A stretch of DNA of 42,862 bases from Campylobacterales bacterium. Lineage in GTDB: Bacteria > Campylobacterota > Campylobacteria > Campylobacterales > Sulfurimonadaceae. Location of the stretch: positions 1-42,862 of the forward strand of contig JACUTT010000018.1 in assembly GCA_014859655.1 (NCBI GenBank), given 5' to 3'. This document shows positions 19,131-23,426 of this stretch, one piece after another. The first letter of the stretch is position 1. Each line of letters starts with the position of its first letter. Below the pieces are notes generated by a model that was not told where the DNA came from, did no database searches, and worked only from the letters and a program-made list of their open reading frames with translations. A program made the position numbers and the translations under genes.

Positions 19131-20447
19131 TTAAGGCAGCGTATTCATATAAGCCTGTGCATCGGCTTGATTTGTGAAAAAATACTCTGTGGCTGTGGTG
19201 CAACTTTCAACTTCACTATATAATTCGCCGTCGCATAGCGATATTTTGCTACCATCAATGGCAAGAATCTTATAATGTTGTCCATCGCTACCAGAATCTA
19301 AGTTACTTCCTTCATCTACTGTTATATAACCTGACAAATCAATAGTATAAGGGTAATCATAATCACTCAATTCCAAGATGTTTAGTCTGTTATTTTCAAA
19401 AGCAAATGTATACTTCCCTCATAGGCCAGTGCCGTCATCTTGAGCAACGGCCCAGATAGTTCTTCCATCTAGCCACTCCGCACTAAACCCTCCTGCCACT
19501 GAAACAGTTGCAGTCGTCGTTGATCCTGATTGCAATGAAGCGAATTTTACATCCGCCTTGGCTTTGTCAAAATAGAAATATTCACTAACCGTAGAATCAT
19601 CCGCAGTGTACTCAATATAATCGGTTGTAACACTTTTAATTGTCAAATAAAAAACCGGATCAGAGCCGAATTGTGGAGTAACTTTTAATTTGCCATCACT
19701 TGTAATTTCATAGGGCTCACTAAAAGTACCATCAATCGTGTCTACCCATGTTACTTGTCCATCGGATCCGAATATTGTTTCAAATGTTTGCCAACCGTCA
19801 TTCCCCCAGTATTGAATAGCATAAAATGTTTTGCCGTTTAAGTATTCCTGAGTGAATTTTTTATCATACTGAAGAGAATTTTCAGTTAGATAATTGTTCA
19901 TGTTTGTAGTAGCCTGAAACGCACTTATTACAGAGTTGTCGTTTTGATCTATCTTGGCAGCAATAGCCGGTACTGCCAACAAAGCATTCATAGAAGACTC
20001 TAACGCCGGATCAGACAGGTTTACATCTGAGAAATCATAATTAGCAAACAGAGCATTGATGACCAGTACTCCCACATTGGTTCTGTTCTGGTCCAGGTTT
20101 TGCAAAAGCATCGCTATGTTTTGAGCTTTTGTAGACGGGTTTGATATGTCTGTGTCTCCTGCCATAGTGTAGGGCGTTACCAAGGACTGGGCCGCTACTT
20201 TTCCAAAGGAGAGGTTTCCTAAAGAGAACTCCACTTGCTCGCCATTGACAAACTTGAATTCCCCTTTATCATTCGTGAACCCGTTTTGAGTTGCGGTGGC
20301 GTATTTCAGTCCTTGTACCGGGGCATCTACAAAAGTACCCGTTTGTGTGACGGGTGCTGTTGTACCTGAGTCACTGCTTCCGCATCCTATAAATGCAGCG
20401 GCAGCTGCGCATGAAAGCACTAAGGCTTTGAATTTTGACAAATTCAT
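19131..20447 (-). pseudogene. Surface lipoprotein interrupted by an in-frame TGA
   Basis: ATG 20447, with AGGAG 5 nt upstream, starts a lipoprotein signal (MNLSKFKALVLSCAAAAAFIGC, Cys22). The GTFVDAPVQGLKYATATQNG / GEFKFVNGEQVEFSLGNLSFG region follows, and then two tandem similar domains. Domain 1 begins EYLNGKTFYAIQYW and ends VSEYFYFDKAKADVKFASL; domain 2 begins EWLDGRTIWAVAQDDGTGL and ends ATEYFFTNQADAQAYMNTLP. TGA 19419-19421 (codon 343) splits domain 2, but the same frame continues to TAA 19131. A TGG-to-TGA change fits best. The truncated form would keep domain 1. It is transcribed divergently from the sensor kinase, with a shared dyad between them. Confidence 0.82.
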
Positions 20448-20489
20448 CTTGTCTCCTGATTTTAAATTTGCACCATCGCAGCAAACCCA

Positions 20490-20509
20490 AATGCCATCGG
20501 TATGACATT
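20490..20509. promoter_or_regulatory. Candidate operator dyad, site 1 (lipoprotein / sensor kinase)
   Basis: AATGCCAT-CGGT-ATGACATT: inverted 8-bp arms with one mismatch and a 4-bp spacer, flanked by TTTAAAA. It lies 28 nt before the kinase ATG and 42 nt before the lipoprotein ATG. The same sequence, inverted, recurs at 22171-22190. Confidence 0.65.
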
Positions 20510-20537
20510 TTAAAACTTTTAGATTATTTCCGTTAAA

Positions 20538-22202
20538 ATGCCAACAATTGCCCACGCGGAGAGCCCAATCAAAACCAGAGACTTTAAAACTTCCTCCTTT
20601 ATCTTTGTCATCATCGGCATCTTTTTGCTCATCGATCTTGTCGGTTATCGCCTGCTTTACAACAACATCACCCAAAGCCATGAAAAAGATACGCAGCTCT
20701 TTTTTTATCAGATCAAGAACACGACGAGTGACTTTTTGTCCAAGCTTCTGTATGAGTACAGCACGCAAAAAAGCATTTTGCTCGAAAAGCACGCGGAGGT
20801 GCTTGAGTATCTGAAGACGCATCCTCAAGGTGGCGATCTTAGCGAGATACACAGGCAGATCAATGAAGACGGGGCCTACAATATCTACATCACTGACAAA
20901 GAGCTGATTATTCGCAACAGCACCTATGCTCCTGACATCGGATTCGATCTGAGTTTTGCCAAGAGCACCTTTGATGAGCATTACGAGAAGGGCATCATCG
21001 GCTGCTCCTCTCCCATCTTTGAAAGACACTCTAAAAAGTTTCTGAGTTTTTCGGACTCCTACCTTGCACAAAACGGCGATGAGAAAAGTGCCATCGTGCA
21101 GGTGAGCTACACCTACAGCGACACCAAACATCAGCTAAAACAGCTGCATAAACTCATCGACACCTTTGCCAATGTCAAAGATGCCAAGGCCTATATCATC
21201 GTCAATACCGAGCTTATCAACGATCTGATCTTGAAAGACTACCCCTCCTACAAGCCCAACATCAATGAAATCGTTTCGCAGACAGAAGAGGGGGGCGCTA
21301 TCGCCGCAAAACTTCACGGGGCCAGCCTGGTCACAGACTATTTTGTCGACGAGGGCACCCCCTACAAGGTGCTCTACGTCTCCACGATGAGTGCGATATT
21401 TGACGACACGAAGATCATCTACTCCATCTTGTTTGACGAGAGCGAGTTTCACGAGAGTCTGGACAGGCTGAACTACCTGATGCTTCTGATAACCGTTCTG
21501 GGCATCGTCGCAATCATCATCATCTCCAAGGTGCGCACCAAAGAGATGCGCCTTGGCGAGCAGGACCGGTTTGTGCAAAGCGCCATGCATGAGATCAAAA
21601 CGCCGCTGAGCATCATCACGCTTAACAATGAGCTGCGCGAACTCGAATTCGGAGAGGACGAGTATAGCGGGGAGATCAACACGGCCCTGAAAACCCTGCG
21701 CAGCTCCTATGACGACATGAGTTTCATTCTCACCAAAGAGCGGCTGCACTATCCCGTAGAGCTTCTGAGCCTTGACGCGGTTCTGCACTCGCGCATCGAC
21801 TATTTTCAAAGCATCGCAAGGGCAAACTCCAAAACGATCCTCTTCGAAAATAGGGGCGGCTGCACCGTAGAGATCTCGCACACCGAACTGCTGCGGCTCA
21901 TCGACAACACCCTCTCCAACGCCATCAAATACAGTGCGCCGAAAAGCCGCATCACCGTCACTCTCGATCAGGCCATGATCTCTTTTCACAACAGCGGAAA
22001 AGCTATACAAAACAGCACAAAGATATTTGACAAATATTTCAGAGAGAACAGCGTTCTTGGCGGCTATGGTCTGGGTCTTAGCATCGTCAGCGAGATTGCA
22101 AAAAAATATTCCATTGAAATAAGCCTTGAGTCGGATGAAAAAACAGGAACAATTTTTACATATTTTTTAAAATGTCATACCGATGACATTCCATCTGTGT
22201 AA
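20538..22202 (+). CDS. Membrane sensor histidine kinase
   Basis: The 554-residue protein has a first membrane helix (about 20-42), a large periplasmic sensor region (about 43-313), a second helix (about 314-334) and a cytoplasmic kinase. The H box is FVQSAMHEIKTPLSII with His351, the N box DNTLSNAIKYS (about 457), and the G box GGYGLGLSIVSEIAKKYS (about 510). No HAMP domain is evident between helix 2 and the H box. ATG 20538 lacks a clear ribosome site, and no alternative start is better. It is 9 nt upstream of the response regulator, its evident partner. Confidence 0.92.
   Translation: MPTIAHAESPIKTRDFKTSSFIFVIIGIFLLIDLVGYRLLYNNITQSHEKDTQLFFYQIKNTTSDFLSKLLYEYSTQKSILLEKHAEVLEYLKTHPQGGDLSEIHRQINEDGAYNIYITDKELIIRNSTYAPDIGFDLSFAKSTFDEHYEKGIIGCSSPIFERHSKKFLSFSDSYLAQNGDEKSAIVQVSYTYSDTKHQLKQLHKLIDTFANVKDAKAYIIVNTELINDLILKDYPSYKPNINEIVSQTEEGGAIAAKLHGASLVTDYFVDEGTPYKVLYVSTMSAIFDDTKIIYSILFDESEFHESLDRLNYLMLLITVLGIVAIIIISKVRTKEMRLGEQDRFVQSAMHEIKTPLSIITLNNELRELEFGEDEYSGEINTALKTLRSSYDDMSFILTKERLHYPVELLSLDAVLHSRIDYFQSIARANSKTILFENRGGCTVEISHTELLRLIDNTLSNAIKYSAPKSRITVTLDQAMISFHNSGKAIQNSTKIFDKYFRENSVLGGYGLGLSIVSEIAKKYSIEISLESDEKTGTIFTYFLKCHTDDIPSV
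22171..22190. promoter_or_regulatory. Candidate operator dyad, site 2 (before the response regulator)
   Basis: AATGTCATACCGATGACATT: perfect 8-bp inverted arms around ACCG, embedded in the last codons of the kinase gene and 21 nt before the regulator ATG. It repeats site 1 in opposite orientation, including the adjoining TTTTAAAA. Confidence 0.65.
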
Positions 22203-22211
22203 AATGCACGC

Positions 22212-23426
22212 ATGAAAATCCTACTCCTTGAAGATAACATCTCTTTAAACCGGGCCATTGTAAAAGTCCTGAAGCTTGACAGCCATACCGTGCAGAGCTA
22301 TCTTGACGGGCAGGATGTCTTGAACGCGCTGGGTGAACGCTTCGACCTCTACATCCTCGACATCAACGTACCCCATGTCAACGGCCTGGAACTGCTCAAA
22401 GCGATCACCGCAGAGCACAGCGAGGCCAACGTCATGATGATAAGCTCGAACACGGACCTGGGCTCCTTGCAAAAAGCTTATGAACTCGGCTGCGTCGATT
22501 ATCTGAAAAAGCCCTTTCATCTTGAGGAGCTGAGGATGAAGATCGCCAAACTCACCCCGCCCGAACTCTCTGCCTGTGCGAGCCTGCAGCGAAGAAGAAA
22601 GGACGACACCCTGACAAAGCGCGAACGCGCACTTTTGGAGCTGCTTCTTGACAATCCGCACAGTGTCGTGGACTACGCGATGATCGAAGCGGTGGTCTAC
22701 AAAGACAAGGTAATGAGCAGAGACGGTTTGCGCGCGCTGGTGCGAAGGCTGAGGACAAAACTGCATGACGACACTATCCACAATGTTATCGACGAGGGCT
22801 ACAGCCTCTCGCAGCAGCCCGTCCATCTCACCCCCGGTCTCGACAAGATCATCGAGCAAAAGACCAGAGCACTCGAAGCAGCCAACAACGAACTCAAGCT
22901 GAAAAACAGGGCATTGTTGAAGAGGTCAAACACCGACCCGCTTACCGGACTGTGCAACCGCCGCAAGATCGAAGAGTCGTTTGCGCAGGAGAGAGAAAAG
23001 TTCGCCGAGACCGGCCGTGCGCTCTGCCTTATCTTGATGGATCTGGACTATTTCAAGGCCGTAAACGACACCTACGGCCACAACGCCGGAGACGGCTACC
23101 TCAAAGAGATCACACAGATACTCAAAAAAACATTCAGAAGCAGCGACACCATCGGACGCTGGGGAGGCGAGGAGTTTGTGATCTTGCTGCCCAAAACCGA
23201 CCTCATGGCAGCGCAGGAGATCGCCCTGAGACTGCGCGATCAGATACAACAGTGCGGTTTTGGACAGATCGGCAGGCAAACCGCGTCTTTTGGCATCGCA
23301 GAACTTCATGAAAACGACTCCCTGCACAGCATCGTTGAGCGCGCTGATGCTGCCTTGTACCGCGCCAAAAAGATGGGCAGAAACAGGGTGGAGCTCTCTT
23401 ACAAACTCTCGCCGCTCAATGCCTAA
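22212..23426 (+). CDS. Response regulator with receiver, OmpR-type DNA-binding and GGDEF domains
   Basis: The 404-residue protein has a receiver domain (1-120; acidic pocket E7/D8, phosphoacceptor Asp50, Lys in YLKKPF). A winged helix follows at about 130-200 (LTKRERALLELLLDNP, the recognition-helix region MSRDGLRALVRRLRTKL, VIDEGYSL). Then come a coiled-coil linker (about 215-240) and a GGDEF domain (about 245-400) with active-site GGEEF (318-322) and an inhibitory RSSD motif five residues earlier. All key residues are present, so it may both bind DNA and make cyclic di-GMP. The gene starts 9 nt after the kinase stop. Confidence 0.92.
   Translation: MKILLLEDNISLNRAIVKVLKLDSHTVQSYLDGQDVLNALGERFDLYILDINVPHVNGLELLKAITAEHSEANVMMISSNTDLGSLQKAYELGCVDYLKKPFHLEELRMKIAKLTPPELSACASLQRRRKDDTLTKRERALLELLLDNPHSVVDYAMIEAVVYKDKVMSRDGLRALVRRLRTKLHDDTIHNVIDEGYSLSQQPVHLTPGLDKIIEQKTRALEAANNELKLKNRALLKRSNTDPLTGLCNRRKIEESFAQEREKFAETGRALCLILMDLDYFKAVNDTYGHNAGDGYLKEITQILKKTFRSSDTIGRWGGEEFVILLPKTDLMAAQEIALRLRDQIQQCGFGQIGRQTASFGIAELHENDSLHSIVERADAALYRAKKMGRNRVELSYKLSPLNA

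Follow-up and report, generated by a model that had tools for sequence, protein, structure and literature searches.

All known binding sites of OmpR/PhoB-family response regulators are direct repeats (PMC4832192). The PhoP protein of Mycobacterium tuberculosis binds as a tandem dimer to 7-bp motifs arranged as direct repeats with a strict, obligatory 4-bp spacer (7+4+7) (PMC4832192), and the pho box of Escherichia coli has the form CTGTCAT(A/T)4CTGTCAT (PMC4832192), with PhoB sites overlapping the -35 region (PMC3348028) and standing at a strict spacing to the core promoter (PMC10294691). An OmpR-type regulator of tetrachloroethene respiration in Sulfurospirillum, probably of the same bacterial group as the DNA examined here, binds promoters in the region of its own gene at a direct repeat that also overlaps -35 (PMC7755780). 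Leaderless mRNAs, for which TAnAaT stands directly before the ATG with no ribosome-binding site, are known in Campylobacter jejuni and other Epsilonproteobacteria (PMC3847290).

In this study, we analysed a stretch of 42,862 nucleotides from a Campylobacterales bacterium (hereafter the window), which carries a kinase gene, a response regulator gene and two copies of a short box. The box resembles that of E. coli PhoB in its TGTCAT-type 7-mer direct repeat, 4-bp spacer and 11-bp period (PMC4832192, PMC3348028, PMC10294691), in overlapping -35 at a fixed distance to the -10 and in its association with a regulator that has a receiver and a winged helix. The locus differs from the E. coli system in that the half-site is TGNCAY, the kinase has a tandem Cache-like sensor and is not PhoR, a GGDEF domain is fused to the window regulator, the regulon appears to be local, and the predicted promoter lies inside the kinase gene, with a regulator mRNA predicted to be leaderless. 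The 7+4+7 architecture is that of M. tuberculosis PhoP, whereas the motif and the organism are different and PhoP has no GGDEF domain. The repeat of the Sulfurospirillum regulator, in contrast, is CTATW separated by 17 bp, and its sensor and targets are different (PMC7755780). Compared with the leaderless mRNAs of Epsilonproteobacteria, the predicted leaderless start here is coupled to a putative activator box at a fixed place, for one regulator gene and in several genera. The mechanism is of a known kind, in a two-component family for which our limited literature search found no published description.

Two copies of a box at the kinase/regulator locus

The kinase gene (20538..22202, + strand) encodes a sensor histidine kinase of 554 amino acids with a membrane anchor, a tandem Cache-like sensor, a HisKA-like domain and HATPase_c. 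The sensor region had no convincing Pfam family match among 30 sequences, and the structure predicted for it (pLDDT 89) is similar to tandem Cache ligand-binding domains at low TM-scores; the kinase scored 62 bits against phoR, far below the cut-off of 334.2 for a PhoR-type kinase. The regulator gene (22212..23426, + strand) encodes 404 amino acids, in which the receiver (PF00072, 74.3 bits; cut-off 30.2) and the winged helix (PF00486, 38.7 bits; cut-off 26.2) place the protein in the OmpR/PhoB family, with the phospho-acceptor Asp50 and the acidic pair E7-D8 in the sequence, and are followed by a C-terminal GGDEF domain (PF00990, 152.9 bits) with a GGEEF motif. The window regulator thus departs from the usual two-domain form, in which nothing follows the winged helix and which is typical of the family but not strictly defining. 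The regulators of most relatives are about 200-220 amino acids long, which is two-domain length, and those of loci L085, L090 and L172 (399-411 amino acids) agree in length with the receiver-winged helix-GGDEF regulator of the window. In a regulator so built, one phosphorylation switch may serve both DNA binding and c-di-GMP synthesis. On the other side of the kinase, a divergent lipoprotein reading frame (19131..20448, - strand), whose N-terminus is 59% identical to that of the L087 lipoprotein and 39% to that of L084, is interrupted by an in-frame TGA (19419-19421, minus strand) that breaks a frame of about 440 codons, the lipoproteins of relatives having 451-458 amino acids; this reflects either a nonsense mutation or decay, or a sequencing or assembly error.

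A first-pass annotation of this DNA had pointed out a perfect dyad before the regulator, an inverted copy of it with one arm mismatch before the kinase, and a flank common to both, and the letters agree with all three points. Box 2 (22172..22189, + strand; ATGTCATACCGATGACAT) reads ATGTCAT-ACCG-ATGACAT, an ATGNCAT direct repeat with an 11-bp period in the -35 region of the predicted regulator promoter, and is located within the last codons of the kinase frame, where it spells the C-terminal tail KCHTDDI. Box 1 (20491..20508, assigned to neither strand; ATGCCATCGGTATGACAT) lies in the interval bounded by the starts of the lipoprotein (20448, minus strand) and of the kinase (20538), and reads ATGTCAT-ACCG-ATGGCAT towards the lipoprotein and ATGCCAT-CGGT-ATGACAT towards the kinase. 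In the inverted-pair comparison, the arm with box 2 and its upstream TTTTAAAA flank (22165..22190, + strand) and the arm with box 1 and the same flank (20490..20515, - strand), whose sequence in the lipoprotein direction is that of the box 2 arm, formed a 26-nt inverted pair that is complementary at 25/26 positions (96%). Because the mismatch of box 1 falls on the free middle base, both sites are perfect for ATGNCAT-N4-ATGNCAT.

The genome scan proposed along with that annotation, for TGTCAT-N4-ATGACA, gave exactly one exact match in the 2.17-Mb genome, which is site 2, and the form ATGNCAT-N4-ATGNCAT gave two exact matches, which are sites 1 and 2 only. With one mismatch allowed, the first pattern occurred at 10 places compared with 3 for a reversed control pattern, so that the loose dyad pattern by itself is weak and not clearly above control. 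The box followed after 10 bp by TANAAT, with at most one mismatch, was found only at this locus and once inside a gene. Genome-wide matches to the box with a -10 comprised the two sites and three one-mismatch places, at which the genes were partly examined, and a regulon search of the same genome yielded no convincing target beyond the kinase/regulator locus. The two sites are real and beyond chance.

The predicted -10 of the regulator promoter is TAAAAT (22200..22205, + strand), located 10 bp past box 2 and 6 nt before the regulator ATG; since no Shine-Dalgarno sequence was found between this hexamer and the ATG, the regulator mRNA is predicted to be leaderless. Weak -10-like hexamers stand on both sides of box 1, namely TGCGAT 10 bp past the box in the direction of the lipoprotein (20475..20480, - strand), where L087 has TATGAT and L084 has TATCAT, and TAGATT 11 bp past the box in the direction of the kinase (20520..20525, + strand). 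No -35 hexamer was recognisable in the box-to-promoter arrangement, and a scan for sigma-70 two-hexamer promoters gave no clear excess, as would be expected if the box replaces the -35.

The box in related loci and its putative activator role

Thirty related kinase loci from the same order were read, and in these the box was kept in the form of a direct repeat, TGNCAY-N5-TGNCAY, with a period of 11 bp. This conservation, which had been named as a check on the autoregulatory operator proposed for the two sites, supports that proposal together with the uniqueness of the sites in the genome. The core occurred 41 times in the 31 kinase loci (286 kb) compared with a mean of 1.3 (maximum 4) in dinucleotide shuffles, a perfect palindromic box scoring on both strands in the count of 41. 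At 13 loci, including the window, the core match begins 38-39 nt and the 18-mer 39-40 nt before the regulator ATG, with a -10-like hexamer (4-6 of 6 positions matching TATAAT) 10 bp on and about 6 nt before the ATG, and a Shine-Dalgarno sequence was found before the regulator in none of the 13. The suggested control of the regulator gene is strongly supported by this fixed place. Degenerate or shifted versions stand before the regulators of L088, L090 and L163. L094-L101 and L171 have no box before the regulator and mostly an AG-rich ribosome site instead; their box is located upstream of the kinase in the outward orientation, followed at exactly 10 bp by TATAAT, or by TATTAT in L096.

The gene that such an outward-facing box precedes varies. 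In many relatives it is a neighbouring gene for an exported protein (L092, L163 and L165) or for a lipoprotein, which in L087 and L084 is related to that of the window; in L094-L101 and L171 the box precedes a small acidic protein or RNA. Control of the divergent lipoprotein, as first suggested, is well supported in relatives and less so in the window, in which the promoter on this side would be weaker, with TGCGAT in place of TATGAT or TATCAT and a frame containing the TGA. As for the kinase, its control from box 1 is weakly supported, the box upstream of the kinase pointing away from it in relatives and the TAGATT of the window being a weak -10.

Where the kinase frame overlaps the box, the protein terminates in CHxxDI or a similar sequence, as these residues are encoded by the box. 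In L085, L090 and L172, another gene (with TonB-receptor homology in L085 and L090) separates the kinase and the regulator, the box is non-coding (and degenerate in L090), and the kinases are without the CHxxDI tail. As read from these loci, what is conserved is the DNA, and the non-coding boxes bear out the earlier opinion that the match is unlikely to be explained at the protein level.

Based on the uniqueness, conservation, spacing and direct-repeat form of the sites and their co-occurrence with the two-component pair, we propose, with a probability of about 0.8, that both are boxes at which the regulator (22212-23426) binds, activating its own gene and the neighbour by class II contact. 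In the proposed mechanism, the kinase would phosphorylate the receiver domain, and two regulator molecules, whose binding may depend on this step, would then occupy the box in head-to-tail order, each placing its winged helix on one ATGNCAT half, at a distance of 11 bp. With the box in the -35 place and 10 bp before the -10, the bound regulator would recruit sigma-70 RNA polymerase by class II activation as PhoB does. At box 2, the regulator mRNA would start inside the 3' end of the kinase gene, at or next to the regulator ATG, and the resulting positive feedback would increase regulator levels, and with them the GGDEF output, separately from kinase levels. The contact made at box 1 would be of the same type, with the divergent lipoprotein promoter, and possibly the kinase, as its target. 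The geometry is that of class II promoters of PhoB, in which the box stands for the -35 at a fixed distance to the -10 (10 bp in most boxes here), and this place, the lack of a -35 hexamer and the strict spacing together point to activation. With the same box and the same regulator, negative autoregulation could also be considered, in which the regulator, once bound, would obstruct RNA polymerase by occupying the -35 region, a place that repressors also use. We regard such repression as improbable, because the box-to-promoter arrangement shows no recognisable -35, most relatives have near-consensus -10 hexamers, and the 10-bp spacing is strict across genera, which repression would not need but which agrees with PhoB-activated promoters.

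Direct repeat, dyad and distribution among genomes

The description of the sites as dyads did not hold in relatives, which show head-to-tail repeats. Among 29 -10-anchored boxes, 21 fitted the direct repeat better, that is, the 7-mer repeat with a 4-bp spacer of PhoB/PhoP-type operators, 3 fitted both equally, and 5 fitted the inverted repeat better by one base, all 5 being of the ATGTCATN4ATGACAT type, which is ambiguous by composition. Inverted symmetry was not kept, the forms TTGACAT-TTAA-TTGACAT and CTGCCAC-AATC-CTGCCAC, among others, are incompatible with a dyad, and the window version merely looks palindromic because ATGNCAT is its own reverse complement. We therefore rejected the dyad reading. 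A symmetric dimer, of this or another regulator, that recognises AATGTCAT-N4-ATGACATT as a true inverted repeat would suit the perfect site 2 and the boxes of the same type in L084, L085, L172 and the polysaccharide locus of genome G343; however, this self-complementary type cannot separate the two readings, those that can (TTGACATN4TTGACAT, CTGCCACN4CTGCCAC and TTGCCACN4CTGACAC) are direct, site 1 breaks the dyad yet keeps ATGNCAT-N4-ATGNCAT, and it is direct repeats that OmpR/PhoB regulators bind (PMC4832192), so that recognition as a dyad is improbable.

Of the 399 genomes of the order, 27 (one of them the window genome) had homologues of the kinase sensor, and further ones were found in additional genomes of three families. 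Judging by gene content, these relatives are probably of Arcobacteraceae and Sulfurospirillum type. The other five genomes of the genus lacked a kinase orthologue and had only paralogous kinase domains of at most 38% identity, and a contig scan with the kinase as the query returned only distant Bacteroidetes kinases. Mis-binning of the contig was ruled out, because the next genes (a TPR protein and a phosphatidylserine-synthase-like gene) have counterparts with 64-78% identity elsewhere in the genus; the contig belongs, and judging by these comparisons the two-component pair is its variable part.

The pattern TGNCAY-N5-TGACAY-N10-TANNAT had exact matches in 20 of the 24 kinase-bearing genomes and in 5 of the 56 genomes that lack the kinase (Fisher p 1.1e-10), a test that is not fully independent, since the genomes in which the box was discovered are among the 24 and related genomes do not count as separate events. 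The reversed control pattern had one match in the 80 genomes, and 25 of the 28 matches in kinase-bearing genomes were at the kinase locus; the five kinase-less genomes that still match count against regulator binding as proposed here. A recognition helix of the form MSxDxLRALxRRLR pairs with ATGTCAT boxes and KSSDAIRSLVKRLRKK pairs with TTGCCAC, an agreement that is not independent because box type and helix type share a phylogeny. The TGTCAT half-site and the 11-bp period are those of the E. coli pho box core (PMC4832192), and the box could accordingly belong to another, global regulator, such as a real Pho box bound by PhoB; this is very unlikely, given that the pattern follows the presence of this kinase, that the box with its -10 is nearly confined to the locus in the window genome, and that the kinase, with its different Cache-like sensor, is far from PhoR. 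That the 26-nt pair is merely the terminal repeat of a mobile element or a segment copied by gene conversion, with no binding role, would account for the agreement of the arms in spacer and flank and for the patchy occurrence of the kinase, but is hardly credible when the half-sites and their spacing persist in relatives whose spacer and flanks differ, the second arm is located inside the kinase frame, and no transposase was recognised among the listed ORFs around the pair.

Boxes before other genes and the meaning of the proposed switch

In L094-L101 and L171, the box-TATAAT promoter facing away from the kinase precedes a predicted transcript of about 250-300 nt with a ribosome site and a terminator-like end. 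The transcript has a small acidic ORF with a C-terminus of about YDYIDEEFEEDDDxDWIKL and a 30-nt block, GGCATACCTTATTCTATATTCATCTAATT, that is conserved even where the ORF is decayed (L094 and L095); it is possibly a dual-function small RNA, and Rfam gave no match on the Arcobacter-type loci. Boxes with a -10 also stand before flagellin genes with large insertions, beside two-component genes (L091, 2849-2932; L170, 6763; kinase on the + strand), and genome G429 has an off-locus box before a flagellar hook-like gene (L190). In L146 (G343:C9:9470), TTTTAAAATGTCATACCAATGACAT-N10-TAAAAT, nearly identical to the window arm, precedes a polysaccharide-type gene pair named by eye as WecA/MraY-like and GDP-mannose dehydratase-like, and in L087 (3134-3151, kinase on the + strand) a box with TATGAT precedes a small TRL-family lipoprotein (PF13146).

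A wider proposal, to which we give even odds, is that the activator box of a leaderless regulator mRNA lies in the last kinase codons, as an operator that dictates CHxxDI, that the regulator and its c-di-GMP output are amplified apart from the kinase, and that the same box drives a neighbouring surface gene that changes with the lineage, be it a lipoprotein, an exported protein, a flagellin variant or a small acidic protein or RNA.

With the present analysis, a kinase/regulator pair that had no name becomes a switch open to testing, and its recognition code TGNCAY-N5-TGNCAY, promoter geometry and likely targets are readable from any genome within the order. The locus also offers a clear example of codons that contain an operator, and of a regulator that alternates between starting at a ribosome site and a predicted leaderless start in step with the loss or gain of its putative activator box.
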